Notes under the pieces: generated by a model
The model's database searches: none
What the model was told of the DNA's origin: nothing
The model's input: the letters and a program-made list of their open reading frames with translations, nothing else
In this document: one piece after another, positions 6,569-37,359 of the stretch
How positions within the stretch are numbered: position 1 is the first letter of the stretch
Layout of the letters: the number at the start of each line of letters is the position of its first letter
Translations under genes and position numbers: made by a program
IMG/VR virus record: IMGVR_UViG_3300044213_000060
Span: 1 to 64,000 of that record
Origin: a virus
Direction: 5' to 3' (one strand)
DNA: 64,000 nucleotides

Positions 6569-7081
6569 ATGAATTTAAAATCAATAATTACAGAAACTGC
6601 CGATTGGCCAAAACCAGGAATTAATTTCCTTGACATAATTCCCATACTCGAAACTCCACTGGCATTCGACTACTGCGTAAAGCAGTTTATGCCGTTTGCA
6701 GAACAATCATCAAGTATTGTTGCAATTGAAAGTCGTGGATTTCCAATTGGCGCAGTATTAGCACAACAACTAAAACTACCATTGGTATTAGTTCGTAAAC
6801 CAAATAAATTACCAAGACCGGTATACTCTCAGAGTTATACAACTGAATACAGCACTGACTCCGTCGAAATTAAACAATCAGCAAACGTAAGAGACTACCC
6901 GTTAATTGTTGATGATTTACTTGCAACCGGCGGCACTGTAACGGCCGCAGCAGATTTATTAAAAAATAACTTTGCGGTTAATTTAGTTAGATGTGCAGTT
7001 ATAATAAATCTTAGTTTTTTACCTGGTGCAGAGTTGTTAAAGCAAAATCAAATTGAATTATTAAGTTTGGAAACTTATTAA
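6569..7081 (+). CDS. apt: Adenine phosphoribosyltransferase
   Basis: A 170-residue cytosolic enzyme that would convert adenine and PRPP to AMP. Visible family marks are the start KSIITETADWPKPGINFLDI, AIESRGFPIGAVLA (residues 52-65), the RKPNKLPRP flexible-loop region (76-83) and the PRPP-binding loop IVDDLLATGGTV (113-124). Length is normal for Apt. It begins one base after the previous gene's stop and its stop overlaps the start of the nucleosidase gene (TAATG), so the two are co-expressed. Together they form a salvage pair: nucleosidase releases adenine, Apt returns it to the nucleotide pool. The placement inside a structural operon is odd. Confidence 0.9.
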   Translation: MNLKSIITETADWPKPGINFLDIIPILETPLAFDYCVKQFMPFAEQSSSIVAIESRGFPIGAVLAQQLKLPLVLVRKPNKLPRPVYSQSYTTEYSTDSVEIKQSANVRDYPLIVDDLLATGGTVTAAADLLKNNFAVNLVRCAVIINLSFLPGAELLKQNQIELLSLETY

Positions 7082-7611
7082 TGGATAATATTATATTATT
7101 AGCACTTAAAGAAGAAGCTCCTGCATTAGCTGCAAGACCAGATGTGTTTTTTACTGGAGTTGGCAAAGTAAATGCAGCTATTGTTGCGGCACAGTTAATT
7201 GAACGTTATAAACCTACACAAGTAATTAACTTTGGCACTGCAGGTGGTATTACTGTTGTATCAGGACTGCATCAAGTAACTCGTTTTGTACAACGAGATA
7301 TGAATTGTTCAGCACTAGGGTTCGCAGTAGGGCAAACACCTTACGAGACTGAACTAGCACTAGGCACAGGACTAACTTGTAGCTCAGGAGATAGTTTTGT
7401 TGACAATCCAGTGTTAAACGTACCCGCAGACCTAGTAGATATGGAAGCATATGCTATAGCCAAGGCATGCCATTTAGCTAATACCAAATTTCTTTGTTAT
7501 AAGTTTATTAGTGATACTGCTGATCATAATGCCAGCACCGAATGGGTTACTATGATCTCAGCTGGTGAAAAGTATTACTTAGAAAAGCTAAAACAACTAC
7601 AAATCATATAA
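7081..7611 (+). CDS. mtnN: 5'-methylthioadenosine/S-adenosylhomocysteine nucleosidase-like enzyme
   Basis: A 176-residue PNP/UDP-phosphorylase-fold protein. Visible marks are E11/E12 near the N-terminus (as Glu12 of the E. coli enzyme), FGTAGG (51-56), VDMEAYA (119-125, the Met-Glu ribose-binding pair) and ISDTAD (143-148, holding the general-acid Asp). This set fits an MTA/SAH nucleosidase, which frees adenine from methylthioadenosine, S-adenosylhomocysteine or 5'-deoxyadenosine. It is about 55 residues shorter than the E. coli enzyme, mainly in the middle, so substrate range may differ. It overlaps apt by one base. 5'-Deoxyadenosine is the by-product of radical SAM enzymes, eight of which lie downstream. 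Confidence 0.85.
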   Translation: MDNIILLALKEEAPALAARPDVFFTGVGKVNAAIVAAQLIERYKPTQVINFGTAGGITVVSGLHQVTRFVQRDMNCSALGFAVGQTPYETELALGTGLTCSSGDSFVDNPVLNVPADLVDMEAYAIAKACHLANTKFLCYKFISDTADHNASTEWVTMISAGEKYYLEKLKQLQII

Positions 7612-7628
7612 GATGTCTAAAGACATCT
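7611..7628 (+). terminator. Hairpin at the end of the nucleosidase gene
   Basis: AGATGTC, loop TAAA, GACATCT gives a 7-base-pair stem starting at the stop codon, followed by GTTGTTT. The weak T-run makes terminator function uncertain; it could equally be the first stem of the non-coding region. Confidence 0.45.
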
Positions 7629-8029
7629 GTTGTTTCGCTCTCGCTCACAACACTTTTCTTACTCGCTTTAGCGAGATAGTTTCATCCAGATTGTTTGGTC
7701 ACACTTTGCCCGCACAGGGCAAAGATTGCTTCATCCGAGTTACCTCAGTCACTTAGCGTTACTGCATTACAGAGGCGGTTGTCCGGTACCTCGAGCAGCG
7801 TCTTTTACAACGGCGGGCTTGTATCTATACGCTAACATACATACAAACCGTGTAGCATCAACTGCTACGTCTTTTTCAGCCTTAGAATCCTATTCAAACA
7901 ATCAAACTCGGGCATTACGAGTCTACATCCTTCTCGGGTAGTGATTGAGCACTCTTAACGGCAGAGATTTACGTCCGAGCGACCCTAGGTCCTCTTTTCA
8001 TGTACACAAGAAATTAGCCTGTGTGAGCC
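7629..8029. ncRNA. Hairpin-rich non-coding region, candidate structured RNA
   Basis: About 400 bases between two convergent genes with no credible coding frame, visibly more GC-rich than its flanks. Perfect stems are ctcgc/gcgag at 7662-7675, ctttgccc/gggcaaag at 7704-7724, gtagca/tgctac at 7852-7868, actcg/cgagt at 7906-7922, and gacc/ggtc near 7981. Two near-identical 14-base blocks, agatagtttcatcc (7674-7687) and agattgcttcatcc (7723-7736), each lie beside a hairpin. I found no tRNA, tmRNA tag, group I intron core or hammerhead motif. The strand is not decided: it could be read through from the nucleosidase gene or from the minus-strand operon. Confidence 0.4.
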
Positions 8030-8464
8030 TTAACCGTTTAATTTGTGTTTAATGTGGGAGCCATGGATACGGACTTGTATATGTCCGTTATAATAATCGT
8101 CGGATTCTAAGACTTGGTGTCTAAATTGTTCTCTTGCTTCTATGTACGAGCATTCTGCTTTACTATTGCAATAAAAAAGTATTTCTCTTTTAAAATTTTC
8201 TTTGCCTAATAAATTCACATCCTTAGTAAGTTCTGGACTGCTACCATAGTAGTCTCGCCAATCACTATCTATTTTACTGCGAATTTTCTTTTTCTTCTTT
8301 GTGCCGTTTTTGAGTTTTACTGTTTTTTGTGTTGTTTTAGAGAATTTTGCTAGTTTTTTGCCTATGTATTTGCGTCCTGATATTGTATTTGTGATCAAAT
8401 ATACAAACCCCACGCAGTTGTCGGGTAAGTTTTCGATACTAGTGCCTTGATAAAACCATGTCAT
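8030..8464 (-). CDS. GIY-YIG endonuclease-like protein
   Basis: A 144-residue protein. The GIY-YIG core is VGFVYLITN followed by GRKYIGKK near residues 17-39, then a Lys-rich stretch (KNGTKKKKKIRSK) and DWRDYYGSS, then the Glu-containing helix EAREQFRHQVL. This is a short nuclease of the type scattered through T4-like phages; it may be a homing endonuclease or a DNA-processing protein. It lacks a clear DNA-binding NUMOD region, unlike the longer enzyme at 46416-46994. It is the last gene of the minus-strand gp47-gp46 block, 39 bases past gp46, and borders the hairpin-rich region. Confidence 0.75.
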   Translation of the reverse strand: MTWFYQGTSIENLPDNCVGFVYLITNTISGRKYIGKKLAKFSKTTQKTVKLKNGTKKKKKIRSKIDSDWRDYYGSSPELTKDVNLLGKENFKREILFYCNSKAECSYIEAREQFRHQVLESDDYYNGHIQVRIHGSHIKHKLNG

Positions 8465-8503: not shown

Positions 8504-10273
8504 TTATGTTATATCTACGTCTGTGTTATAGGTTGTGTACCCGTTTTCTTTAACTACACGCAGAGTATTATTAACACGTCCGGCTAGTTCGTCTTTGTGA
8601 CTGACTAACCAAATACTTTTGTTACTATCCCTGCTCATTTTCTTGAGAATACCTAAACTGTTTTCTACTCCGCTACTATCCATTCCCGAATCAACTAACT
8701 CGTCAATGAACAACAAGTTAATAGGTTGATATAAACTTTCCCAAACATCCCGGAATGCCCAGGATAAACTTAAAATAAGTCTATTGCGTTCGCCGCGTGA
8801 TAAGTTATCAAAGTCTAGATCGCGTCCTAGTTCTGTAATGCTAACCGTTAAGTCATTGTTAAATTTTACAGTATGTGGCAAGCCGATACGATCTAAGTAT
8901 TGTCCTAGTCGTGCGTTTAAGTAGGATAAGTTTTGATCAATAATACGCTTACGGATAAACGAATCTTTGTTGGTTAATAGTTTTAACAAAAACTCTTGAT
9001 GGTCTTTAATATTGGTTAATTCGTTTATTAAATCAAAACTGATTCCTTCAACTGCTTGTTCCTGCATATCCCGAATTTGTTCTGCATAAGGATCTGTCTC
9101 ACTTTCTTTTGCAGTAAGTTGAGTTAGCACACTAGCCATGCTACTGCGGTGTTCAAATGCATCCGACTCGTCGCTGTAATATACCTGCGGTTGAGTGCCT
9201 AATTCGCCTAATTCTTTTAACGCATCAGTATGTTCCATCCATTGTGAGTTGGTTGCTAGTGCTTGTAGTGCGGCTTCTTGCAATGCTAATTGTTTGTCTG
9301 CTAACATCTTTTCGTGATTGTTATCATGTAGGTCTTGCCCACACGCATGGCATCGGTGGTTTTCTAAAGCAGTAATTTCTGCTTTAAGTTGGTCAATTAG
9401 TTTTTGCTCGCGTTTTTCATCTAGTTCGCAACGACGAATCCAGGAGTTTAATTCGGCAATTGCTTTTCTTTTTACATTATACTCAGATAAAAGTTTATGT
9501 GCTGATAGTTCTGCTTCAATGTCTAAGGTGCTGAGTTCGTCGTAGGCAGACTGCAGTTTTGCAATATCTTCTTGACGTTTATTTTGCCAAATTGTTTGTT
9601 TACGCTTTGTGGATTCAATTTGTTCTTCGATACGCCGGTTAGCATCTGTTACTGCTTTAATTCTAAATTCTTCTTGACTGATAGCATCCTTTGTGGCTTT
9701 TGTTTGTTCTTTTAATGCTTCGGCTTTTTCACTTAGTAATGTAATACCTAACAACTGCTCAATAATAGCACGCTGGTCGTTGGCTTTTAATGCTAAGAAT
9801 GGCTCGGTGTATGTATTAAGTGCAACAATGTGCTTGAACATATCGTGGCTCATACCTAACATACGCTCGATGTCTGCTTGGGTTTCTCTACTATCGCCTT
9901 GTGCTTCATCAGTGATTTCTTTTTCTTGATCATCAACAAAGAATTTCATAACGCCGGGTTTTCGACCACGCTCGATACGATAGTTAATGCCGTCTTTTTC
10001 AAAATCAACACATACCATCATACCTTTGGTATTTGTTTTGTTGATTAGGTTATCTTTTTTAATGTTAGTTAACGCATTACCATATAATGCAAATGACAAC
10101 GCATTGATGATCGTAGTTTTGCCAGTACCATTTCTAGCACCCGAATCGTCCCCGCCTAAGTCTAGATTTTCACCTAAGACTAATGTAAGATCATTGCGGT
10201 CAAAGTTAACTGCTTGCGTGGCATTGCCCACGCTCATAAAGTTTTTTACAGTAAGGTCTTTTATCTTAAACAT
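8504..10273 (-). CDS. gp46: Recombination/repair ATPase subunit gp46 (Rad50/SbcC type)
   Basis: A 589-residue SMC-like ATPase. Walker A is GARNGTGKTT at residues 45-54; a long coiled coil is interrupted by the zinc hook CHACG near residue 307; the ABC signature LSRGERNRL is near 490 and Walker B NLLFIDEL near 515. With gp47 it forms the Mre11/Rad50-like exonuclease that resects DNA ends for recombination-dependent replication and host DNA breakdown. T4 gp46 is 560 residues. It starts at ATG 10273, overlapping the previous gene's end by 8 bases. In T4, gp46 and gp47 sit close together; here two extra genes lie between them. Confidence 0.95.
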   Translation of the reverse strand: MFKIKDLTVKNFMSVGNATQAVNFDRNDLTLVLGENLDLGGDDSGARNGTGKTTIINALSFALYGNALTNIKKDNLINKTNTKGMMVCVDFEKDGINYRIERGRKPGVMKFFVDDQEKEITDEAQGDSRETQADIERMLGMSHDMFKHIVALNTYTEPFLALKANDQRAIIEQLLGITLLSEKAEALKEQTKATKDAISQEEFRIKAVTDANRRIEEQIESTKRKQTIWQNKRQEDIAKLQSAYDELSTLDIEAELSAHKLLSEYNVKRKAIAELNSWIRRCELDEKREQKLIDQLKAEITALENHRCHACGQDLHDNNHEKMLADKQLALQEAALQALATNSQWMEHTDALKELGELGTQPQVYYSDESDAFEHRSSMASVLTQLTAKESETDPYAEQIRDMQEQAVEGISFDLINELTNIKDHQEFLLKLLTNKDSFIRKRIIDQNLSYLNARLGQYLDRIGLPHTVKFNNDLTVSITELGRDLDFDNLSRGERNRLILSLSWAFRDVWESLYQPINLLFIDELVDSGMDSSGVENSLGILKKMSRDSNKSIWLVSHKDELAGRVNNTLRVVKENGYTTYNTDVDIT

Positions 10274-10868
10274 GCATTTTCCAATGAGATAGGTCTTGCT
10301 CGATCAAATCTTCAAAATTGTCAATGAAATTGTTTATTATTATAATATCTCGATCATGAAAAGTCAAAGTTTTTGTATATGTTGTTTTATTGATATACAT
10401 AGGTTGTAACTGTACACTTGGTATTTCTAAAAAGTTAGTTATTTTATCAAGCACAGCCTGCGGATCTTTTTTTATATTGTCGTAAAGTAAAATCATAGTG
10501 TTAGCAGGCAACCTTTTCATTATTGGTACATAGTCGAAATACTGTAGAAATGTTGAAATAAAGATTGAATCATCTATGTCAGATTTCCAAAAATTATATA
10601 AACTATTGGCATAGCTGTAAGGATCTCGAAAAATAACTGAGCGATGAGTAGCAACAGAATCTAGTAAAGCTAGTTGATAACTGTCTAGCTGCCATAAATT
10701 TGTATTAAAATTTACACTAAAATCTTGTTCTGCAAAATAATTTTGATACACACCGTTGTGGACTATTTGAATACTTGGTTCTTTTTCAGAATTAAATCTC
10801 AGATTTTTAAACAGCCACGATGTAGCAGTTTTAGCTGTTCCGTAATTAATGTAGTGTTTAAATCGCAT
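10266..10868 (-). CDS. Sulfotransferase-like protein
   Basis: A 200-residue protein. The N-terminal YGTAKTATSWLFKNLR resembles the PAPS-binding loop of sulfotransferases (GTxKxxTxWL), and HRSVIFRDPYSYANSLYNFW resembles the 3'-phosphate-binding segment (RDPxxxxxSxY). Sulfotransferases move a sulfuryl group from PAPS to a hydroxyl or amine on a sugar, lipid or protein. I chose ATG 10868 rather than an upstream TTG; it overlaps the preceding gene by 11 bases. It sits between gp47 and gp46, an unexpected place, and shares overlaps on both sides, so it is expressed with them. An APS kinase begins at the right edge of the window and could supply PAPS. The acceptor is unknown. Confidence 0.7.
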   Translation of the reverse strand: MRFKHYINYGTAKTATSWLFKNLRFNSEKEPSIQIVHNGVYQNYFAEQDFSVNFNTNLWQLDSYQLALLDSVATHRSVIFRDPYSYANSLYNFWKSDIDDSIFISTFLQYFDYVPIMKRLPANTMILLYDNIKKDPQAVLDKITNFLEIPSVQLQPMYINKTTYTKTLTFHDRDIIIINNFIDNFEDLIEQDLSHWKMHV

Positions 10869-11250
10869 GAATAAAATCACGTATTGGGTGGAAGAATTCA
10901 AAAATTAAATCGCCCATAAAAAATAAAATATGATTATCTGTTACAGAATAGTCTACTTTTATAGAGTTTATATTAGCATAGTTAACGAAATTACTATGGT
11001 ATATATTTTTACCAATGCCTAATTTGTTCCCCGTAACCCTCCAAAATTCATCAAAAATAATCATTGTTATTTCTACTGGGTGAGACATAATTTTTGTATT
11101 ATCACAGTTTATGCGTATACTATAAATTTTATCATAATTAGGTTGATAATCAAATACATGAGAGCCAGTACCTGATTTAACACTAACAGTTTGATTGTCA
11201 AAAAATATATTAAAATCTGTTCCAGCAGAATAGAAGATTTCTAATTTCAT
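10858..11250 (-). CDS. Hypothetical protein between gp47 and the sulfotransferase
   Basis: A 130-residue protein whose start overlaps the gp47 stop (TAATG). It is rich in beta-forming residues (KLEIFYSAGTDFNIFFDN, YSIRINCDN, VEITMIIFDEFWRVTG) and may form a small beta-sandwich. No catalytic motif, signal peptide or membrane segment is evident, and I do not recognise the family. Tight overlap with both neighbours says it is translated with gp47 and the sulfotransferase-like protein; a carbohydrate-binding or acceptor role linked to sulfation is possible but speculative. Confidence 0.6.
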   Translation of the reverse strand: MKLEIFYSAGTDFNIFFDNQTVSVKSGTGSHVFDYQPNYDKIYSIRINCDNTKIMSHPVEITMIIFDEFWRVTGNKLGIGKNIYHSNFVNYANINSIKVDYSVTDNHILFFMGDLIFEFFHPIRDFIHAI

Positions 11251-24624: not shown

Positions 24625-27600
24625 ATGGCTGCTACACGAACAATACAATTTCTACCAGAAATATTTAGAACAGACACAAATCAAAAGTTCTTAAATGCAA
24701 CTTTAGATCAGTTGGTCACAGAACCTGATTTTCGAAAGATTAACGGATATATTGGTAGAGAATTTGCCCCTAGTTATAAATCAACAGACAACTATATTGC
24801 CGAGCCTAGCACAGATAGACAAAACTATCAGTTAGAGCCGCATGTTGTTATTAATAATCCTTTAACAAATAATTTAGATTTTTATTCTGGATACACAGAT
24901 GTAGTCAATAAAATTGGATACTATGGCGGTAACACAACAAATCATAATAGACTTTTTAACAGCGAATATTATACGTTTGATGGACATTTTGATCTAGACA
25001 AATTTGTAAACTTTAATAATTATTACTGGTTGCCATATGGTCCAGATGCGGTTCCTTTGTCTTCGGGCGGAGTTCCGAAAACATATACATATGATGTAAC
25101 GTTTGATAGTGCAAGTCGTAGCTGGCGTTTTAGTAGTAATGGTGTTGAAAACAACCCTAATTTAATATTAGAACAAGGCGGAACATATACCTTTAACATC
25201 GATGAACCGGGCAATCAATTTTATATCCAAACAAAACCAAGCCAATCTGGCATGGATCCGGCACAACCAAACATTGACATTACACAAGTATTGGGAGTCG
25301 AAAATAACGGAACAGATGTTGGCACAATTACCTTTAACGTACCGCCGTTGGATGCACAAACACGTTGGACAAGCATGCCAATTGCTGGCACTGCCGATTT
25401 TGCAACAACATTATCTTACGCAGAGTTGCAAGGTCGGCCGGTTTCCGATATACAAACTGCATTAAATGGCATAGATGGTTATACTGGTAATTTTGATTTA
25501 AAAACAGTAATCTTTATTGGTAATTATGTTGATGACAAATACTGGACTTCGTTGTCTGAGTTCGACACAGACACTTTTGATTCTGTATTTGATATTTCAG
25601 GAACAGTTCCTGAAAATCAAAGGACTGGTATTTTTAGGATAAATGTTGTTAACGATACATATAGTCAGCCACATGTTTTATTAACTCCGATAATTGCAGT
25701 TAATAACAATACTAAAGTATATGTTCAAGCTGGTGTTGTTTATGCTACTGAAAGTTTCTACGTAGATACAAATAACCTATATCAAAAAGTACCTCTTATT
25801 ACCGCACCGTTGACTACATTATATTATCAAAGTAGACAATATGCGGCAGCTGGTAGTATATCGATTAGTAATACGCAAACCTCTGCAATTAATCCTGCAG
25901 TAGATATTGTTGGAAAAACAAATTATACAAGTCCTAATGGCGTTACTTTAACAAACGGGTTAAAAGTAAAATTTGATTCTACTGCTACTGGTGTTTACGC
26001 CGGAAATTCCTATTATGTTGAAGGGGTTGGCTCTGCAATAGTATTAATTGATATTAATAATACTGTAACTCCAGAACTATCAGATACAACAACGTATATA
26101 GGATTTGATGCAACCGGTCACGGTTTTGATTTTGACCAGTTTGATTCTACCATTACCGGCGCACTAACAACAGATTATATTACTATCAATAGAGCTAGTC
26201 AAGATTTAAATGCATGGAGCCGTAGTAATCGTTGGTTCCATATTGATGTTATAACGTCAAGTGCTTCTTATCTAGGTAATACACCGGTAATTGACCAACT
26301 TGCTCGAGCACAAAGACCTATTATTGAATTTGAAGCTAACTTACAATTGTTTAATTACGGCAAAGTAGCTAAGTTACCAGTTGATATTTTAGATACAAAT
26401 ATAACAAATGTCTACACTCAGCTAGAAGGACTACCATCTACAAAACCAACATCTGCAGATATCAATGTAAATGGAACTGTTATTACAATTAAAAATAATA
26501 GCAGAATAATTTTTAGTGCAGACTCTAATCCTAATGTTAGAAATAAAATTTACAGATTTAACATTGATAATAAAGTTGCAAGTGTAACAAATCCTGAATA
26601 TATTTGTTATATCACTGAAGAAGCTGATAGTTTAGTTGAAGCAGGTCATACTATTATTGTATTAAGCGGAGACAGTGCAGGATTACAATATTATTTTAAT
26701 GGTTCTATTTGGATTAAAGCACAACAAAAAACAGAAGTTAATCAACCACCGTTAATAGATGTTGTTGACAGCAATGGCAATAGTTTCAGCGATAAAAGCA
26801 TTTATACAAATAGTTCGTTTGCAGGAACAAAACTATTTTCTTATTCCGTTGGCACAGGAACTGTTGATAAAGTTCTAGGATTTCCTTTAAGTTATAGAAA
26901 TTTTAATAATATTGGCGATATACAATTTCAAAATAATTTTGACTTAGATACATTTACATATCTAATAGGTTCTACCGCAACATCTGCTAGTGTTAATACA
27001 GGATTGTTGGTTAAAAATTCTGGATTAACTTCTAGTACAAATGTAAACTTGTGGTCCAAGGTAAACAGTCCTAGCAAACAATATCAATTAAGAAAACACA
27101 TCTATGATGGGGCAAATAATTATTTTGAGTTAGATGTATTACCAAATCCGACTACGACCCAACCTAATTTAAAAATTGTAGTTAATAACACACCTGTGGC
27201 ATTAGGCGAATATGCAATTGTTAAAATTGTTGATAGATATGCAGTTGCAGTTAATTCTTCATTAATGGCCAAAGGAGATACAGTATATGTGCAGGTATAC
27301 AGTGATACACCTAGCAGTTTATCATATTATCAAATTCCCACAAATCTTGATTTAAACAGTTTGAATACAAATTTCCAATTGCTAACGCTTGGACAAATTC
27401 GTAACCATTTAAAAACTGTAGCACAAAATAATACCGGCATTACAGGACAGGTTCCTGGTAATAATAATCTGCGTGATATTGTTTATAAAAATACTCCAGG
27501 TACAATTTTACAACATAGTGCGCCACAAATTTACAGTAATTTGTTTTTAGTAAACAAAAATTTAAATTTTATAAATGGTCTGCGTCTAGCACAAAAAGAA

Positions 27601-30600
27601 TACAGCAAATTTAAAAATCGTTTTTTAGAAAATGCATTAAAGTTAGAAATTGATTACACAGATCCTGTTAGCGCAGTTGACACAATTTTAAACTCTATCA
27701 ACGCAGTAAAAAATCAAACATTCCCTTGGTACTACAGTGATATGGTACCATACGGTCAAGTTAAAACAGTATTACCTACTTATAAAGTCTTAACTGCAAG
27801 TATAAGAAGTTATGAAATTACCAGTATATTCAATGACGCCGAATTAAGTAATAGCGCGGTCTTAGTTTACTTAACTAGAATTATTGCCGGAGTCGCAAAT
27901 AAAACTCAATTAGTAAAAGATCGTGATTATAAATTTGATCAAGACAAACCAAGTATTACATTTTTAGATACTTTTGATTTAGTCTACGGTGACGAAATTA
28001 ATATTGTTGAGTATACAAATACAGATGGAAACTATATTCCCGAAACCCCTACAAAACTAGGATTGTATCCTAAATTTGTTCCTAGTATATTTGTAGATAA
28101 CACATACCTAACACCAACAACAGTAATACAAGGACACGATGGAAGTATAACTCCGGCGTTTGGCGATTTTAGAGATCAATTGTTGTTAGAACTTGAACTT
28201 AGAATTTATAACAATTTAAAGATTACCTATAACAAAAATAATTTTAATCTTTACGATTACATTCCTGGAAAATTTAGATTAACAGAATATAACCTAACCG
28301 AATTTAATAGAGTTATTACACAAAACTTCTTAGAATGGGTTGGAACAAATCGTTTAGATTATAGTTCAAATACTACGGCCACAAGCACTGACGGTTTTAC
28401 CTGGAATTATAAAGGGTATAATGATTTAATCACAGGCGAAGCGATGCCGGGATCTTGGAGAGCAGTATTTAAATATCTATTTGACACAGATCGTCCGCAT
28501 ACACATCCCTGGGAAATGTTAGGATTCACTGATAAGCCAACTTGGTGGGAAGAACGTTACGGACCTGCTCCTTATACAAGTGGCAACACAGTATTATGGA
28601 GTGATCTAAGTATTGGGTATATTTACAGTGGTGATCGTGTTGGTTTTGATGCACAATTCCAACGTCCCGGTTTGTTTAATTTTATTCCAGTAGACGACCA
28701 AGGTAATTTACGAGCACCAAGTGATTTTTTAACAAAAATCACTAACACAGGAAAGATTGGCGGAAGTTGGGAAATTGGAAATATGGGTCCAACAGAAACT
28801 GCTTGGCGCCGTAGTAGTGATTATCCGTTTGCGGTTCAATATGCTATGGCATTGATGAAACCTGCGAGATTTTTCGGAACATTAGTTAACATTGAAAGAT
28901 ACAGATATTTAACCGCCTTATCTCAGTTTGGCAACGTTACAACAAACAAACACCTACAACCAACAGACATTCAAATTAATGGGTATGTTAACACAGATGG
29001 AACTGTTGTTCGCACAGCTGGCTATATAAACTGGGTACGTGATTACTTGACTAATTTAGGCATTAGCAATAGTTCTAGTTATATTAAAAATATTTTGCTA
29101 AATCTTAATGTGCAGTTAGCTTATCACGTTGGTGGTTATACTGATAAAAATTATATAACAGTCTTAGCAGAACAAAGCAGTCCTAGCAGTATCAACGATA
29201 GCATCGTAGTTCCAAATGAAAACTATACTATCACATTGAACAAATCTTCGCCTACTGGTAAAATTTCTTATAGCGCAGTTATTGTTGAACGAACAAACAG
29301 TGGATACACAGTAACTGGATATAATTTAGCTAGTCCTTATTTTACAGTGATTCCAAGTCAAGTTGACAATAATTTTTATACTATAAAATCTGGCAGTGCC
29401 AGTGTATCAGTATACAGAAACTACAGACCTGTAAAAGTGCAGTTTAATTATGGCACTGAATTTACTTCTGTTCAACAGTTAGCTGATTTTCTAGTAGGAT
29501 ACCAACGATATTTAAAAAGTCAAGGGTTTGTATTTACAAATGTAGATCCGGATCTTCAAGAAACACTAGATTGGACTGTGAGTATCAAAGAATTTTTGCA
29601 CTGGAGTCAACAAGGTTGGGCCCCAGGCAATGTTATTGTATTAAGTCCAGTCAATACAAAATTAACTGCTGTTACCAAGTTATCGGTTGTTGATGAAATA
29701 AAAAATGCACCGTACAGCAGTAAAGTGTTAGATGTTAACTTTGCTACAATTAAATCTAACAATTTCTCAATTGCTAGAACTGGTAATCAATTTGACATTA
29801 CGAGCATCAGTGGACAAACAATTGCATTTGCAGAATTAGATCTAGTACAGTTTGAGCAGACCATTGTGTTTGATAACCAAACAGTGTTTAATGATATTAT
29901 TTACAGTCCCGAAACCGGTAATAGACAATATCGTTTAAAACTTGTTGGCAACAAAACCGGTGACTGGGATGGTAGTTTTAGTATTCCAGGATTTGTATAT
30001 AACAATAATCAAATCAATGATTGGCAACCCGGCACAGATTATCAGAAAGGTGATCTAGTCAAGTACAAATCAAGTTATTATACTGCCATAGCAGACACAT
30101 CGGGCTCGGCTACATTTGTTATTGCCAATTGGTCATTGATAGATGGTGCAACCATCAAGTCTGGTTTATTAAATAATTTTGGTTATAACTCGGGTAAGTT
30201 TAATCGCGTTTATGACATTGACAATCCAGTTGAAGATGCATCTTTGTTACAATTCAGTCAAGGCTTAACTGGATTTAGATCTAGAAGTTATCTAACAGAT
30301 ATCGGTGTAGACAACGACACACAAGCCAAGTTTTATCAAGGCTTTATTAAACAAAAAGGCACATTAAATGCTGTGAACGCATTCCAAGGTGCACAGTTTG
30401 GTGCGATAACTTCTAACATAGCATACAATGAAGAATGGGCTATTCGTGTTGGTGAATACGGTGCGTTAGACAGCAACAACTACATTGAAGTTGTTCTGCC
30501 TGAAACTAATATTCATACAAGTCCAACACCGATAGAATTTATTGAAAATACTGCAGAACGTCCTTACGATATACAAAGTTATAATGAAAATGATGTCTAT

Positions 30601-33600
30601 AGAATATCAGGATCGTATAGCCCTGATATATTAAAAACACGTACTAGAGATGTTGTTAACACACAAGACTTGCCGACTGCAGGCTATGTTAACCTAAATG
30701 ATGTTGACGCCACTATTTTTGACATAAGAAACTATGCGGTACTAGATGCGGTTATCAACAACATCCGCGACGGATATAAAATTTGGGCTGCAAAAAGTTT
30801 TGATGGACAATGGAATGTTTATAGATCTTCGGGACTAAACAATACAGTTTTGCAAATGAGCTATACAAACGATAGCCTTGTAAAAGTATATCTAAACCGA
30901 ACACATAATTTGTCCAGTGGTGATGTTGTTGTAATTAAAAACTTTGATTCACGCTTTGATGGTTTTTATCAAGTGTTTGGATCAGATAGTAGTACAACAT
31001 TTTTTGTGGTAATGTACCAAAATCTTGACGTCGTACAAAAATTAAAAACCTTATACGGATCTGGTGTTATATTCCACTTGACCAGTATGCGTATCACACA
31101 ACCTAGTCAAGTACTACAACTTACTCCGCCTACCGGATGGATAAATGGCGACAAAGTTTGGATAGATGGCACGGCCACAACAAATTGGGAAGTCTATAAC
31201 AAAACTGATCCTTGGGCATTTGAACAAACACTATCACTAAATCCAAGTGAATACATCGGTAATGATCAATTTGGTACCAGTGTAAAATTTAATTCAGACT
31301 CTACAGTACTATATAGTGGAAGTCCTAATACTGGAATGGGCCGACTGGCAATATTCCAACGCAGTAGTGCCGATAATTCTTGGTCTTCTGCAGGAACTAT
31401 AGCACCAAACGGAAATGCAACAGTACAGTTTGGACAAGCAGTTGATACTGGTAAGCAAACAGTTGTAGTCGCTGCTCCTGGCAGTAATTCTGGTGCAGGA
31501 TATGTTTATGTTTATAAAGCACAAAGTGCTGGTGTTGGCTTATCACAGATTTTAACCGCACCAAATGTTGCATTAACAAATGCTGGGTTTGGGACTGCAG
31601 TTTCTGTTAGCAAAGACGATCGTTGGATGTACATAAGTTCCCCGGGAGTAGGTGAAGTATATGCTTATGCTAAAGTAAGCCAGCCTATTGTTAATACTAC
31701 TTTCACTGTATACGGCAACGAAGTTACAGCTAACTTATCGTCACAAGGTATCGGTAGTACATTAACAAATGTTGGTGGCAACAGCGGAAACTTTACTGTT
31801 TATAATGGTTTAACTTCTTTAATTCCCGGTAACGATTATACATTTACTGCACATTCTATTAGTCTAACAGCACCTGCAACTCAAAGCAATGCTAGTGTTT
31901 CTGGTACCGGTGTAATAAATCAAGTTTATACATCACCGTTTGTTATTGGACCTGTAAAACGAATTCGTGTTGATAATAATGATGGCTCTGGTAGTATTAT
32001 AAAAACAGAAGGAAACATAGACGCTGGACAAGGCGACTACAGAATTTTTGCAAATAGTTCTTCGATTAGCACAATAGTATTTTCGTCAACTGCAACACCA
32101 ACATTAAATGCAAACATTTATATTGAAAATGGTACAAATTATGTATTTTATCAAAATGATTACTATACTCTAGAACACGTAATTTCTGCAGATCACACAA
32201 CTAGTTTTGGCAGCAGCATAAAGTCTAGTACCGATGGTACACAATTGGCTGTTGGTGCTAAAAAATATTCAGTAAACGGATTTAATGAAGCCGGGGCGGT
32301 ATTTGTATACGGACGCAGCATTGAGAAATTTACCGGATCTGGAACAAACAATAGATTTATTACAAAAGATCCAGTGCCACCAATACACTATGTTGAATTA
32401 AATGGTGTTACACAACGAGAAAACGTTGATTACGCAGTAGTGGCTGGTACAGTAACTTTTGCAGTTCCTCCTACGCCAGGAAGTACAATAAGCGTAGACA
32501 CAAATCAATTTAGATTAATAAATTATTTTACTGATACGGCTCCTAGCGCATACGAACACTATGGAGAATCGGTTGAAATATGCCCACTTGATTGCACAGT
32601 ATACGCAACAGCACCAAGATATAAAACTGCACACTATGTTGAAGGAGCAGTTTTTAGATATACTAACCAAGGAAAAGTCTACGGAACTATTCTTGGAACT
32701 GTACAAAATCCTACAGTAACACCAGGAGACTGGTTCTCTATTAACGGATTTAAAGTTTCTTTTGATGGATCAACACTAGATAGCGTTGTAAAAAATATTA
32801 ACAATGCATCAATACTTGGTGTGCAGGCTAGCAACTTAAATGGATATCTATATATTGAAAGTATTTTGTTAACATCATTTAAGAAATTAGATATTAATCC
32901 TGGCAGTGGGACTGCATTAACTGATTTAGGATTGAATGTTTTTGTTTATACTCAAACAATAACAAATCCTGTGGCAATTAACAATCAAAGATTTGCATCT
33001 GGTATCGCAGTAGCCGATACTGCAGATACAATTTTAGTTTCTAGCAGTGGCTCGACTACATATTTAGATAATACGTTTGATTCAATAACAACAACATTTG
33101 ATAGTGGTGCAACTAAATTTACGCATCCTATACCAAATGCTGGCGCAGTTTACGTGTTTGATCTAATGACAAATACCAGCGCAAGTGCAGCTAATCCAGC
33201 ATTATTTGCTTATACTCAGCAATTAGAAGCACCAAATATTTCCGGTGGAATGAATTTTGGTGCCAGCATGGCGGTAGCCAATAACTATATGGCAATTGGC
33301 AGCAACCTAGACTCTGAATACAAAAATAATGGTGGAGTTGTATCTGTGTTAGCAGGGTCAGGTGTAAAAGGTTGGGAATTGATTAGAAGCCAATCACCTG
33401 CAGTAGATTTAAACAGTCTTGGGCATGCATTTATATACAATAATAAAACACAGCAGATTATTCAACATTTAGATTATATTGATCCTGCTAAAGGTAAGAT
33501 ACTCGGGGCCGCGGAACAATTTATTGACATTAAGTCTGAGTTTGACCCGGCGGTATATAATAGTGCGTTGCGTACCGATGTGGTTAATAAAATAGAATTA

Positions 33601-36600
33601 AATTGGAATAGTCAACAACGTGGACGTACTTGGTGGGACTTGAGTACAATTAGATACGTTGACTATGAACAAGATACAATAACATACAGAAGCAAAAACT
33701 GGGGAAGATTATTTCCAGGATCTGTAGTGACAGTGTACGAATGGGTAGAAAGCAATTACTTACCAAGTCAATATGTGTCAAGCGGTGGTGATGGCACACC
33801 AAAATATCCCGACGATACAGCATACTGTTCTGTGGTACAAGTTAATCCGTCTACAGGAATAGTCACAAGTACATATTATTTCTGGGTAAGCAAAAAAGTT
33901 AATGTTGATTTTATTTCTGATAATGGTAGAAAAATCAGCACAATTGAATTAGAAAACATTATACGTAGTCCCGAAAGTCAGGGTATATCGTACTCGGCGT
34001 TGTTGGCACCTAACGCAATGAATTTATATAATATTTCTGATAAATTAGTTGCCAACGAAGTAGTACTACATCTAGATACAACACAGTTAACAAATACAAA
34101 TATTATTCACAGTGAATATCAATTGATAACAGAGTCATCTGCTGATACTGTGTTTCCAAAACGTATTATTACTAAACTAAGGGATAGTCTTAGTGGATTG
34201 AATTCTACAGGCCAAGTTGTTCCAGATCCTACATTAAAAGCCAGTGATAGATATGGTGTATTGATTAGACCTCGTCAAGGATTGTTTATTAACCGTCAGA
34301 CCGCAGTTGAAAACTTTGTTGACAAAGTCAATCAAGTAATGGCTGCAAACCCTGTTGCGTTACAATACAATATTACTACACTAAAATCAAGTCAACCTGT
34401 ACCAGCTGGCTCTTATGATCTTGCAGTTGATATGTATTCTGAACTCGATTATATCAATCGCTCAACACTATCGGATGGATCCCGCGTATTAGTTAATAGT
34501 GATTCTAACAATAACGGATTATGGGTAATCTACAGTTATGTTGCTGCTGACGATTCGTGGACAGTCAATAGAATTCAAAGTTATAATACTTCGTTGTATT
34601 GGACTTACTCTGACTGGTATGCAGTTGGATTTGATACATCGCGAAAAATTACCAAACAAGTTGCAATATACGCCGACATAAAATTATTATCTTATTCTGC
34701 TGGTGATATTATTAAAGTATTAAACAACGGAAATGGAAACTGGTCATTGTACGAAGTACTTGACAATTTGTCTTTGCAAATTGCCGGGGTACAAAATGGA
34801 ACAGTACAACTATTACCAAGTGTATACAATTTGGCCGAAGGCAGCATGGGATTTGATGCTGATAACTTTGGTATAATCAGATACGATCAGAATCCGTTTA
34901 TTGAGTTAGGATACATCTTTGATGCAATTTATAACGATATATTTGTTGGCGATCTAAGTATAGAATTTAATAATTTATTCTTTACGTTGGTAAATTATAT
35001 CTTTACAGAACAACTAGCACCCGATTGGATATTTAAAACCAGTTTTGCAACAGTAACACACTATTTGCGTACTCTAGCTCAACTGCCAAGTTTTGTTAAT
35101 GATAATCAAACATATTATCAAGATTACATCAACGAAATCAAACCTTATCGTACACAAGTGAGAGAATACCTTCCTGTATACTCTGGCACAGATCAAGCCG
35201 ACGGTCGTATCACAGACTTTGATTTGCCGGTGTATTTTGATACAACATACAACAGGTATCGTCCACTTGATAATGCTAATATTTTTGATGCCAACGTTAT
35301 CGCTACCACGGATGAGTATCAAGATTGGTTGTTAAATTACACCTATAGTGTAACTGAATTGTTGATTGAAAATCCTGGATCTGGATATACAGTTCCTCCT
35401 ATTATTACTATTAGCGGTGGCGGAGGATCTGGGGCAACAGCGATTGCTGAAATTAATTTAGACTTTGGTACAGTCACAAATATTATAATTACAAATCCTG
35501 GGTCAGGATATACAACTACACCTACAGTAACAATTAACGGTAACGGCATTGGTGCTACTGCATATGCAATATTAAATAATGAATATTATTCTACTAGTAC
35601 CGCATCAAGTTACAATAAAGTTAGAAACTTAAACACTACAATTAAATTTGATAGAATAAACTATACAAGTAACGTACAAACTTGGTCTGCAAATACTGCG
35701 TATGCAAACAATGCCATTGTTAGCTATAATGGAGTAGCATACCAGGCAGTATCAGCTTGGAATACATATACAGACACAGTATTTGATCCATCTAAATATA
35801 CAGAACTAACAGGCGACTTCTTTACACAAGCAACAGATAGAATCTCTGCTTACTATCAACCAGCAACAGGTATGCCGGGGCGTGATTTTGCACAGTTAAT
35901 GACTGGTATAGATTATCCTGGTACTGAAGTTAAAGGATTAGAATTTACTGCTAATACACTTAACATATCTTCAAATGTTATAGGTTTTAACTATCAAGGC
36001 ATGACTATAACCAGTGCCAATACTTCTAAAATTGATTTTGTGGCGCTAGGATTCTCTGCGGATAAAACTATTGAAGTACGCGGATTAGTTCCGTTTGCAT
36101 TTGACAATAATGCTAGATATACCATTTTAAGCGTTACATCAAATGCTATGATGCTAACCGGAGCACCTGTAACAACTATTAGTAGTTTAGTATTGTCATC
36201 TAATGTAACAGTTAACGCTGGGGATTTCGTACAACAAACATATAGTCCATCTGGTACCGGATTAGTAACTGCCAATGGTAGAGTGGTTAGCTCAACAACA
36301 AACTCTAATGTTATATCTGTTATTAGTACCAATGAATATGTTGTTTCAAATACCAATTATTTGTTAGTTAACAATGCAAATGTACATGCTACAGTTGCAA
36401 ATGTAATGCCAACTGGAACTGCTGATGTTGAACTAATTTATTTTGATGACGCGAACACTAGTAGACTTGATACTATTATTCAAAGTAGTTATACTGATAC
36501 TGCGTTAGGTACAAGACCTGAAGATATTAATGTTGATGGTGGTGCTTATGTTGATCAATACAATAGTCATGCACCAGAAGAACTAATACCTGGTCGTATG

Positions 36601-37359
36601 TATGATACATTAAGTCTAAAAGTAATGCATGTTGATGGTGGATATTCTTGGGCATGGGAATATTTCTACGATATGAACGGTTCTAGACAGTACTATCGTC
36701 TAAGTGATCAACACTCTACGACGCTTCGTGCCAACTTGAATGTTACAGATTCCAATATTCAAGTGGTAAATGCTGCTAGACTATCTGCACCAAATACTCC
36801 ACTTGCACTTCCTGGTGTAGTCTACATTAACGGTGAAAAAATAACATATTATGGAATTGACTACACAAATAATGTATTAACACAGATACGTAGAGGAGTC
36901 GATGGTACGGGAACACCTCAGCGCCACCTAGTGAATTCAACTGCATTCGACAACAGTCTAACACAAGAAATACCTTGGAATTATGTTAATACTGAATTGT
37001 ACTTAACTGGTACAGGTACTAAAACCGCATTTAACAGTAATGTTGACATTTATGGGGTCACTTCTGTTAAAGTTAATGGAAATATAGTACAAAATTACAA
37101 ATTTGTATCTAATACTATTTCACCAGTTAGTGAGTGGGATATAGAATTTTCAACTGCACCGCCACTAGGAGCAAATATCGCAATTACTAACCAATCAGAA
37201 CGTAGTTTCTTAACCATGACCGGAAATACAATTGTTATTGATTCCCACAGCGGCGGATTTATAGTTGCAAATACAGTTGCTGCAACTTTTATGAAACAAT
37301 ACGGGTTAGCTTCATTCTTGAGTAATACATTCTCGTATACGGATCAAAAAATTAGTTGA
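24625..37359 (+). CDS. Giant baseplate wedge/fibre protein, gp7-like position
   Basis: A single uninterrupted 4244-residue frame between gp6 and a gp8-like gene, where T4 has gp7 (1032 residues). The N-terminus (FLPEIFRTDTNQKFL, GYIGREF, YQLEP) resembles large structural proteins of marine T4-like phages. Domains seen: two WxxGTxYxxGxxVxYxxxxYxA carbohydrate-binding-like modules (CBM5/12 style, near residues 1798-1840 and 3685-3725); seven FG-GAP-like blades at ~2209-2919; and paired NPGSGYT Gly-rich units at ~3580-3648. The rest is Asn/Thr/Tyr-rich beta structure. No catalytic motif is clear. It probably forms peripheral wedge arms that touch the cell surface. It starts 13 bases after gp6. 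Confidence 0.8.
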   Translation: MAATRTIQFLPEIFRTDTNQKFLNATLDQLVTEPDFRKINGYIGREFAPSYKSTDNYIAEPSTDRQNYQLEPHVVINNPLTNNLDFYSGYTDVVNKIGYYGGNTTNHNRLFNSEYYTFDGHFDLDKFVNFNNYYWLPYGPDAVPLSSGGVPKTYTYDVTFDSASRSWRFSSNGVENNPNLILEQGGTYTFNIDEPGNQFYIQTKPSQSGMDPAQPNIDITQVLGVENNGTDVGTITFNVPPLDAQTRWTSMPIAGTADFATTLSYAELQGRPVSDIQTALNGIDGYTGNFDLKTVIFIGNYVDDKYWTSLSEFDTDTFDSVFDISGTVPENQRTGIFRINVVNDTYSQPHVLLTPIIAVNNNTKVYVQAGVVYATESFYVDTNNLYQKVPLITAPLTTLYYQSRQYAAAGSISISNTQTSAINPAVDIVGKTNYTSPNGVTLTNGLKVKFDSTATGVYAGNSYYVEGVGSAIVLIDINNTVTPELSDTTTYIGFDATGHGFDFDQFDSTITGALTTDYITINRASQDLNAWSRSNRWFHIDVITSSASYLGNTPVIDQLARAQRPIIEFEANLQLFNYGKVAKLPVDILDTNITNVYTQLEGLPSTKPTSADINVNGTVITIKNNSRIIFSADSNPNVRNKIYRFNIDNKVASVTNPEYICYITEEADSLVEAGHTIIVLSGDSAGLQYYFNGSIWIKAQQKTEVNQPPLIDVVDSNGNSFSDKSIYTNSSFAGTKLFSYSVGTGTVDKVLGFPLSYRNFNNIGDIQFQNNFDLDTFTYLIGSTATSASVNTGLLVKNSGLTSSTNVNLWSKVNSPSKQYQLRKHIYDGANNYFELDVLPNPTTTQPNLKIVVNNTPVALGEYAIVKIVDRYAVAVNSSLMAKGDTVYVQVYSDTPSSLSYYQIPTNLDLNSLNTNFQLLTLGQIRNHLKTVAQNNTGITGQVPGNNNLRDIVYKNTPGTILQHSAPQIYSNLFLVNKNLNFINGLRLAQKEYSKFKNRFLENALKLEIDYTDPVSAVDTILNSINAVKNQTFPWYYSDMVPYGQVKTVLPTYKVLTASIRSYEITSIFNDAELSNSAVLVYLTRIIAGVANKTQLVKDRDYKFDQDKPSITFLDTFDLVYGDEINIVEYTNTDGNYIPETPTKLGLYPKFVPSIFVDNTYLTPTTVIQGHDGSITPAFGDFRDQLLLELELRIYNNLKITYNKNNFNLYDYIPGKFRLTEYNLTEFNRVITQNFLEWVGTNRLDYSSNTTATSTDGFTWNYKGYNDLITGEAMPGSWRAVFKYLFDTDRPHTHPWEMLGFTDKPTWWEERYGPAPYTSGNTVLWSDLSIGYIYSGDRVGFDAQFQRPGLFNFIPVDDQGNLRAPSDFLTKITNTGKIGGSWEIGNMGPTETAWRRSSDYPFAVQYAMALMKPARFFGTLVNIERYRYLTALSQFGNVTTNKHLQPTDIQINGYVNTDGTVVRTAGYINWVRDYLTNLGISNSSSYIKNILLNLNVQLAYHVGGYTDKNYITVLAEQSSPSSINDSIVVPNENYTITLNKSSPTGKISYSAVIVERTNSGYTVTGYNLASPYFTVIPSQVDNNFYTIKSGSASVSVYRNYRPVKVQFNYGTEFTSVQQLADFLVGYQRYLKSQGFVFTNVDPDLQETLDWTVSIKEFLHWSQQGWAPGNVIVLSPVNTKLTAVTKLSVVDEIKNAPYSSKVLDVNFATIKSNNFSIARTGNQFDITSISGQTIAFAELDLVQFEQTIVFDNQTVFNDIIYSPETGNRQYRLKLVGNKTGDWDGSFSIPGFVYNNNQINDWQPGTDYQKGDLVKYKSSYYTAIADTSGSATFVIANWSLIDGATIKSGLLNNFGYNSGKFNRVYDIDNPVEDASLLQFSQGLTGFRSRSYLTDIGVDNDTQAKFYQGFIKQKGTLNAVNAFQGAQFGAITSNIAYNEEWAIRVGEYGALDSNNYIEVVLPETNIHTSPTPIEFIENTAERPYDIQSYNENDVYRISGSYSPDILKTRTRDVVNTQDLPTAGYVNLNDVDATIFDIRNYAVLDAVINNIRDGYKIWAAKSFDGQWNVYRSSGLNNTVLQMSYTNDSLVKVYLNRTHNLSSGDVVVIKNFDSRFDGFYQVFGSDSSTTFFVVMYQNLDVVQKLKTLYGSGVIFHLTSMRITQPSQVLQLTPPTGWINGDKVWIDGTATTNWEVYNKTDPWAFEQTLSLNPSEYIGNDQFGTSVKFNSDSTVLYSGSPNTGMGRLAIFQRSSADNSWSSAGTIAPNGNATVQFGQAVDTGKQTVVVAAPGSNSGAGYVYVYKAQSAGVGLSQILTAPNVALTNAGFGTAVSVSKDDRWMYISSPGVGEVYAYAKVSQPIVNTTFTVYGNEVTANLSSQGIGSTLTNVGGNSGNFTVYNGLTSLIPGNDYTFTAHSISLTAPATQSNASVSGTGVINQVYTSPFVIGPVKRIRVDNNDGSGSIIKTEGNIDAGQGDYRIFANSSSISTIVFSSTATPTLNANIYIENGTNYVFYQNDYYTLEHVISADHTTSFGSSIKSSTDGTQLAVGAKKYSVNGFNEAGAVFVYGRSIEKFTGSGTNNRFITKDPVPPIHYVELNGVTQRENVDYAVVAGTVTFAVPPTPGSTISVDTNQFRLINYFTDTAPSAYEHYGESVEICPLDCTVYATAPRYKTAHYVEGAVFRYTNQGKVYGTILGTVQNPTVTPGDWFSINGFKVSFDGSTLDSVVKNINNASILGVQASNLNGYLYIESILLTSFKKLDINPGSGTALTDLGLNVFVYTQTITNPVAINNQRFASGIAVADTADTILVSSSGSTTYLDNTFDSITTTFDSGATKFTHPIPNAGAVYVFDLMTNTSASAANPALFAYTQQLEAPNISGGMNFGASMAVANNYMAIGSNLDSEYKNNGGVVSVLAGSGVKGWELIRSQSPAVDLNSLGHAFIYNNKTQQIIQHLDYIDPAKGKILGAAEQFIDIKSEFDPAVYNSALRTDVVNKIELNWNSQQRGRTWWDLSTIRYVDYEQDTITYRSKNWGRLFPGSVVTVYEWVESNYLPSQYVSSGGDGTPKYPDDTAYCSVVQVNPSTGIVTSTYYFWVSKKVNVDFISDNGRKISTIELENIIRSPESQGISYSALLAPNAMNLYNISDKLVANEVVLHLDTTQLTNTNIIHSEYQLITESSADTVFPKRIITKLRDSLSGLNSTGQVVPDPTLKASDRYGVLIRPRQGLFINRQTAVENFVDKVNQVMAANPVALQYNITTLKSSQPVPAGSYDLAVDMYSELDYINRSTLSDGSRVLVNSDSNNNGLWVIYSYVAADDSWTVNRIQSYNTSLYWTYSDWYAVGFDTSRKITKQVAIYADIKLLSYSAGDIIKVLNNGNGNWSLYEVLDNLSLQIAGVQNGTVQLLPSVYNLAEGSMGFDADNFGIIRYDQNPFIELGYIFDAIYNDIFVGDLSIEFNNLFFTLVNYIFTEQLAPDWIFKTSFATVTHYLRTLAQLPSFVNDNQTYYQDYINEIKPYRTQVREYLPVYSGTDQADGRITDFDLPVYFDTTYNRYRPLDNANIFDANVIATTDEYQDWLLNYTYSVTELLIENPGSGYTVPPIITISGGGGSGATAIAEINLDFGTVTNIIITNPGSGYTTTPTVTINGNGIGATAYAILNNEYYSTSTASSYNKVRNLNTTIKFDRINYTSNVQTWSANTAYANNAIVSYNGVAYQAVSAWNTYTDTVFDPSKYTELTGDFFTQATDRISAYYQPATGMPGRDFAQLMTGIDYPGTEVKGLEFTANTLNISSNVIGFNYQGMTITSANTSKIDFVALGFSADKTIEVRGLVPFAFDNNARYTILSVTSNAMMLTGAPVTTISSLVLSSNVTVNAGDFVQQTYSPSGTGLVTANGRVVSSTTNSNVISVISTNEYVVSNTNYLLVNNANVHATVANVMPTGTADVELIYFDDANTSRLDTIIQSSYTDTALGTRPEDINVDGGAYVDQYNSHAPEELIPGRMYDTLSLKVMHVDGGYSWAWEYFYDMNGSRQYYRLSDQHSTTLRANLNVTDSNIQVVNAARLSAPNTPLALPGVVYINGEKITYYGIDYTNNVLTQIRRGVDGTGTPQRHLVNSTAFDNSLTQEIPWNYVNTELYLTGTGTKTAFNSNVDIYGVTSVKVNGNIVQNYKFVSNTISPVSEWDIEFSTAPPLGANIAITNQSERSFLTMTGNTIVIDSHSGGFIVANTVAATFMKQYGLASFLSNTFSYTDQKIS
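31249..33380 (+). other. Seven-bladed propeller-like region within the giant protein
   Basis: Seven FG-GAP-like repeats are visible, each with an (Y/F)G.S/A turn, a middle strand and a V.VY/VFVY-type strand: NDQFGTSV, VQFGQAV, AGFGTAV, TSFGSSI, EHYGESV, QRFASGI, MNFGASM. An insert of about 170 residues separates blades three and four. Seven copies is a usual number for a closed beta-propeller. Confidence 0.6.

Follow-up and report, generated by a model that had tools for sequence, protein, structure and literature searches.

Among the RNAs carried by bacteriophages, GOLLD and ROOL are large and pseudoknotted, and their function is unknown (PMC12286853). The RNA described here is alike in kind, a large and ornate phage RNA, although it is about half the size of GOLLD and matches neither family in Rfam; RF01718 was the only entry to reach threshold in the window (the whole 64-kb stretch of viral DNA that was analysed) and in the loci searched. 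GOLLD and ROOL often, if not universally, lie near a tRNA island. This is not so here: no tRNA genes were found in the 64-kb window, and in G380, which also carries the RNA, the RNA (at 207 kb) and the tRNAs (at 294–308 kb) are some 85 kb apart.

Two other systems invite comparison. TnpB and its reRNA show the same order of a nuclease gene followed by an RNA (PMC11061315). The reRNA, or omega RNA (formerly the orphan motif RAGATH-18), resembles the present RNA in being structured, orphan, and placed immediately after a nuclease gene; in the present case the gene encodes a GIY-YIG protein rather than TnpB, there is no guide segment, and the RNA is also found without a nuclease gene nearby. In the vibriophage ICP1, a gap lacking ORFs yields a transcript of about 800 nt, the most abundant of the phage (PMC7567579). 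Ours is likewise a phage RNA in an ORF-less gap; the length and the phage differ, and the two are set side by side by description. Since the ICP1 gap gives that phage's most abundant transcript, strong expression of the present RNA is plausible by analogy.

The closest catalogued motif is Polynucleobacter-1 (RF01718), published in 2010 by Weinberg et al. as a probable RNA of Burkholderiales and fresh water and entered in their table as "cis-reg: y," that is, scored as probably cis-regulatory (PMC2864571). In our literature search the motif was named only in that paper.

A gene-free stretch and its match to Rfam

Between the end of a plus-strand ORF at 7611 and a minus-strand GIY-YIG ORF at 8030–8464 the window has a gap of 418 nt, whereas the next longest gap between called ORFs is 80 nt, in keeping with the initial annotation, which had singled this out as the only long gene-free stretch. 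The perfect hairpins and the elevated GC content that it reported are also there: the gap contains the inverted repeats I10 and I12 together with GTAGCA/TGCTAC, ACTCG/CGAGT, and CTCGC/GCGAG, and its GC content is 44–48% (200-nt windows) against 30–42% in most flanking windows. The minus strand folds better than 100 of 100 shuffled sequences (z = −2.6), the plus strand less clearly so (better than 98 of 100; z = −2.2). Folding energy by itself is weak evidence; the proof of an RNA structure is covariation.

The same annotation had recognised no RNA class and had proposed a covariance search. On that point it was mistaken, the family not being one that can be recognised by eye: positions 7896–8029 (minus strand), the 5′ third of the RNA, match RF01718 over the full model (1–141 of 141) at 88.7 bits (E = 1.4e-17; cmscan), which by score (the gathering score is 37 bits) makes the locus a member. 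The six relatives found first all match RF01718 too. In an alignment of these six, however, conservation extends about 280 nt past the Rfam model, so that the conserved RNA is three times as long as RF01718. The model covers the 5′ 134 nt of the RNA in the window, about one third, and lacks two of its pseudoknots (PK2 and PK3), a twin motif described below, and the 3′ hairpins; it was scored as probably cis-regulatory in Burkholderiales and fresh water, whereas the present RNA is a phage RNA. Eight loci belonging to two divergent subtypes (2 and 3) gave no Rfam match. A search for RF01718 in 369 genomes of the class of G001, a set that included no known carrier genome as a positive control, gave 0 matches. 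RF01718 stands in the catalogue as an orphan motif, and the part catalogued earlier is only the first third of the RNA.

Structure of the RNA and the strand that encodes it

The elements of the RNA are as follows (window coordinates).

7611–8037, minus strand: whole conserved RNA, 5′ end near 8037 (where one strand of a pseudoknot overlies the stop codon of the GIY-YIG gene), 3′ end a terminal hairpin; covariation throughout in the alignment of 62 relatives
7896–8029, minus strand: 5′ domain, the sole part in the RF01718 model (cmscan, 88.7 bits)
7958–8037, minus strand: pseudoknot PK1, 8037–8034 with the loop 7961–7958 of a 5′ hairpin; 4 of 4 pairs change on both sides, 78% of cells paired
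8004–8029, minus strand: second 5′ pseudoknot, 8029–8027 with 8018–8016 and 8024–8020 with 8008–8004; 94% and 100% paired, both-side changes
7899–7947, minus strand: three-way element, 7947–7942/7904–7899, 7937–7936/7930–7929, and 7923–7919/7909–7905; 99.5–100% paired
7852–7868, minus strand: hairpin 7868–7864/7856–7852; sequence highly variable, pairing kept, 5 of 5 pairs change on both sides
7753–7849, minus strand: stem 7849–7837/7828–7816 and pseudoknot PK2, its loop 7835–7829 (UUAGCGU) with 7759–7753 (ACGCUAA)
7762–7811, minus strand: most conserved domain, with pseudoknot PK3, 7811–7807 (GUUGU)/7782–7778 (ACAAC), and stems 7798–7795/7765–7762 and 7791–7789/7775–7773; 99%, 95%, and 100% paired
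7704–7724, minus strand: hairpin CUUUGCCC-UGUGC-GGGCAAAG between the twin copies; one helix of the covariation model; a different hairpin instead in subtypes 2 and 3
7631–7650, minus strand: hairpin preceding the terminal one, its apical loop of GNNA type; two helices of the covariation model
7611–7628, minus strand: 3′ terminal hairpin and 3′ end of the RNA; 98.6% paired, 7 of 7 pairs change on both sides, sequence variable

The ends given, 8037 and 7611, are limits of conservation rather than mapped transcript ends. The initial annotation had placed the structured stretch at 7629–8029; the stretch itself stands, but the RNA runs from about 8037 to 7611 on the minus strand, some 18 nt beyond one end and, at the other, slightly into the region of the GIY-YIG stop codon, PK1 extending into the end of that reading frame.

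The structure, 95 pairs in 22 helices, was derived by covariation on 123 relatives and tested on 62 chosen to share less than 80% identity. Standard pairs occupy 93.3% of cells (95 pairs, 62 relatives), as against 33–43% when one side is slid by 1–3 columns; both-side changes affect 70 of the 95 pairs and 919 cells, compared with 49.6 pairs and 268 cells in shuffles; and the covariation score is 0.441, compared with at most 0.091 when slid and at most 0.165 when shuffled, a comparison that leans towards the structure, as the derivation set shares relatives with the test set, and whose margin is very large. PK2 illustrates the pattern: in this contact between a loop and a strand 70 nt away, 95.5% of cells are paired and 7 of 7 pairs change on both sides, the locus L002, for instance, having AUAGCAG with CUGCUGU. 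At the level of covariation, the alignment shows a fold with three pseudoknots (PK1, PK2, and PK3) and a terminal hairpin. Within the proposed pairs, G-U occurs in 363 cells and A-C in 76, an asymmetry that settles the strand of the RNA as the minus strand.

The observation of a structured gene-free stretch is confirmed, and its interpretation as a structured non-coding sequence under selection, for which a comparison with relatives had been proposed, receives strong support from compensating changes along the whole RNA; the lack of conservation that was to count against it did not occur. Nor was a match found to a decayed gene, another outcome named beforehand as refuting it. Chance or gene decay is refuted by the covariation and carries practically no weight, given some 200 homologous loci with an intact covarying structure and alignment gaps that keep to no reading frame.

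Genomic setting and carriers

Three genes of the window define the immediate surroundings of the RNA.

8030–8464, minus strand: GIY-YIG (SegE-like) gene, directly upstream of the RNA; PF19835, E = 1.3e-33
8504–10273, minus strand: gp46-like (SbcC-like) gene, upstream and in the same orientation as the RNA; phrog_77, E = 5.5e-100
7081–7611, plus strand: convergent gene, its stop codon touching the terminal hairpin of the RNA; PF01048 (PNP_UDP_1), E = 2e-17

Several features of this region can be recorded in passing. The GIY-YIG protein at 8030–8464 (SegE, PF19835) is widely annotated in phage records as "NAD synthetase" (phrog_447), a label that looks like a misannotation. Beside the RNA, at 6569–7611, adjacent phosphoribosyltransferase-like and nucleoside-phosphorylase-like genes are a possible nucleotide-salvage pair. 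A sulfotransferase-like gene lies between gp46 and gp47 (10266–10901), and other ORFs lie around this variable place in related loci. The structural region contains a single ORF of 4244 codons (24625–37359).

Six phage contigs were found first, with a DNA pattern made from the motif, and they share an arrangement in which the GIY-YIG gene is followed by the RNA at its stop codon and then, in most, by a convergent baseplate-type gene. Searches baited with the GIY-YIG protein and with the invariant 3′ domain brought the number of loci carrying the RNA to about 200, some of them pieces of the same contig and nearly all from uncultured contigs. A covariance model of the RNA (R1) finds exactly one copy of the RNA in 19 of 20 long contigs (44–347 kb); the twentieth carries the divergent subtype 3. 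The RNA is a single-copy feature of uncultured T4-like phages of jumbo size, with contigs of up to 347 kb. The parent virus record of the window (92.9 kb) has T4-like genes (gp20 portal, a T4 baseplate-like protein, gp46, gp47, and a late sigma factor), and among cultured phages its closest kin by portal and gp46, with 45–51% protein identity, are PA5oct, Callisto, Atu_ph07, Phosso, and GAP32, all of them jumbo phages.

The RNA had no BLAST match among 50,697 records of cultured phages, and R1 gave no credible match in cultured phages with distant GIY-YIG relatives or, with filters off as well, in the nearest cultured kin PA5oct, Phosso, Atu_ph07, and GAP32. In several of these jumbo phages the region from gp46 to the portal gene has, in a roughly corresponding position, an ORF-less gap of 0.66–1.0 kb.

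PA5oct 76516–77180: ORF-less gap, no match to the RNA model
GAP32 177396–178201: ORF-less gap, no match to the RNA model
Phosso 229758–230773: ORF-less gap, no match to the RNA model

These gaps (L237, L240, and L238, respectively) may hold a diverged counterpart of the RNA. When genomes were scanned for the most conserved domain by means of a short consensus, 24 stretches came up; of the seven scored with R1, only L218 was a true match (152.5 bits), the other six being rejected for scores of at most 23.5 bits over short lengths or for having no R1 score. In L218 the RNA is followed by T4-type baseplate-like genes on a contig within a Bacteroidetes MAG, probably a phage contig that was binned with a bacterium. 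A separate observation concerns the 332-kb phage contig G385 (the contig of L152), in which ARAGORN calls a tRNA-Pyl with anticodon CTA at 329801–329875; three contigs related to it have 25–28 tRNAs each.

The RNA is nearly always found behind a GIY-YIG gene downstream of gp46; the GIY-YIG gene lies directly upstream in 158 of 200 loci, and, leaving aside about a dozen loci with an inserted gene (see below), most of the others are cut by a contig end. This adjacency, and an order like that of TnpB and its RNA (PMC11061315), could mean that the RNA is a guide or scaffold for the adjacent nuclease, as the reRNA or omega RNA is behind TnpB. We consider this improbable. The RNA has no terminal variable guide, for it closes at its 3′ end with a conserved hairpin, after which comes a promoter box or the next gene; the partnership is not constant, as one locus, L183, has the RNA on a 3.5-kb piece that lacks a GIY-YIG gene; cultured phages that encode distant GIY-YIG relatives lack such an RNA after the gene; and the twin motif shows no coupling to GIY-YIG residues above background. 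GIY-YIG genes are, moreover, common mobile neighbours.

On another reading, which we think unlikely but to which we allow some weight, the RNA is a 3′ UTR or another cis-regulatory element: it would control the downstream gene, or else stabilise the gp47-gp46-GIY-YIG transcript, attenuate it, or bring it to an end. The RNA starts at the upstream stop codon, even where the upstream gene is an insert; PK1 uses the stop-codon region; the terminal hairpin at 7611–7628 scores as terminator-like on both strands; and the published table lists the motif as cis-regulatory (PMC2864571). Control of the downstream gene is made less likely by the orientation of that gene, which is convergent in the window and, among the 109 relatives that could be scored, in at least 78. 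Of 31 loci in which the downstream region is co-directional or unassigned, 18 (L018, L063, L087, and L141 among them) have a T4-late-type NATAAATA box immediately after the terminal hairpin, the background being about 1%; the downstream gene therefore probably has its own promoter, and the RNA is probably not its leader, although it may have a role for the upstream transcript. In about a dozen loci a gene of 0.7–1.8 kb has been inserted between the GIY-YIG gene and the RNA, which then follows the stop codon of the insert, and L183 has the complete RNA between unrelated genes. Because of L183, where no GIY-YIG gene adjoins, and these copies behind inserted genes, we favour an independent RNA over a 3′ UTR, for which, besides, a 420-nt fold with twin motifs would not be needed. 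No promoter for the RNA stands out, a sigma-70 scan having given no more than chance, and the RNA may be processed from the end of the operon.

The twin 7-mer motif and a proposed role

Mutual information across the alignment brought out, beside the base pairs, two segments about 50 nt apart that are strongly coupled by identity.

7730–7736, minus strand: twin motif copy A, 5′-GGAUGAA-3′, preceded by ACUC (alignment columns 318–324)
7681–7687, minus strand: twin motif copy B, 5′-GGAUGAA-3′, preceded by AUCU (alignment columns 371–377)

In most relatives the 7-mer is [AG]GAU[AG]A[AUG], and the copies flank the CUUUGCCC hairpin. They are identical to each other in 121 of 123 unique RNAs, although a tree from which the motif columns had been left out places about 37 changes in the 7-mer. 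Parsimony at the three variable positions requires 22, 8, and 14 changes for copy A and 23, 8, and 14 for the two copies jointly; the joint counts being equal or one higher, the copies almost never change singly. Subtype 2 has AGAUAAU twice and subtype 3 has ACAUGAA twice, so that the identity of the twins is kept in both. Across all loci we count ten versions of the motif in 140 unique regions, a tally that searched for identical copies and so catalogues versions without testing identity. Subtype 3 is very divergent (L015, L044, L046, and L069, some 30–500 nt behind the GIY-YIG gene) and is a candidate for an RNA family of its own. We know of no phage RNA described as having 7-mer copies tied in this way by identity rather than complementarity.

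Gene conversion is rejected as the cause of this identity, since the three bases before the copies differ (CUC and UCU) and yet both are invariant, and a fixed DNA spacing is rejected because the distance between copies varies from 47 to 61 nt. The copies might nevertheless work as DNA, as direct repeats that bind a phage protein at an origin, a recombination site, or a packaging site: a pair of short co-evolving direct repeats is present, and such repeats recall the iterons to which proteins bind. The variable spacing shows no helical phasing, however, and both the strand-asymmetric pairing (G-U 363, A-C 76) and the compensatory changes act on RNA, which makes a DNA element very improbable. 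In subtype 1 the copies could form a helix with each other (ACUCRGAU with AUCURGAU), yet this leaves their identity unexplained, and in subtype 3 the helix is broken.

Other candidates for what the motif does fared no better. No column inside the RNA covaries with it as a partner. Pairing with phage sequence is unsupported by the flanks, where complementary 7-mers show no excess (56 seen, 57.5 expected), and by five long phage contigs, where none is visible; reading by the GIY-YIG protein is unsupported as well, coupling between its residues and the motif not rising above background. Pairing with a tRNA anticodon was rejected on paper, as position 37 would not be a purine. A CsrA sponge of the CsrB/RsmZ type was rejected, since seven GGA in 418 nt is about the chance number and several variants of the twin motif (AGAUAAU, ACAUGAA) have no GGA.

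That the copies almost always change together suggests that both recognise one common partner. The reading we prefer, at a probability of roughly 0.6, is that the locus is an independent, single-copy non-coding RNA gene of T4-like phages of jumbo size, whose product would be a trans-acting scaffold with two copies of one recognition site. An RNA of about 420 nt would be made from the minus strand, probably either from the end of the gp47-gp46-GIY-YIG transcript or from a promoter of its own, and closed by the terminal hairpin. Acting in trans as a rigid scaffold, it would hold out the two copies of its recognition sequence, which a hairpin separates, to partners all of one kind. This partner would most likely be a host or phage nucleic acid bound by base pairing, which we favour over a protein because the motif changes easily and often; the alternative is a dimeric or multimeric protein or a like-with-like contact between RNAs. 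Two points weigh against the preferred reading: the position of most copies, immediately after a stop codon, would suit a 3′ UTR element as well, and no partner was found in the RNA columns, the flanks, the five contigs, or the GIY-YIG residues. More tentatively, the 7-mers may be an exchangeable recognition sequence in a phage regulatory RNA of a new kind, both copies of the word being adjusted together as the partner differs from host to host or from phage to phage; if this is true, the partner might be, for instance, a host small RNA or mRNA captured by the phage.

RF01718, an orphan Rfam motif with a bacterial name, covers no more than the opening third of an RNA that is widespread in giant phages, so that its catalogue entry needs revision as to length and probably also as to carrier and presumed cis-regulatory role. 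The twin motif gives a concrete handle on the function of that RNA, as altering one copy, altering both, or swapping in another natural version predicts different outcomes.
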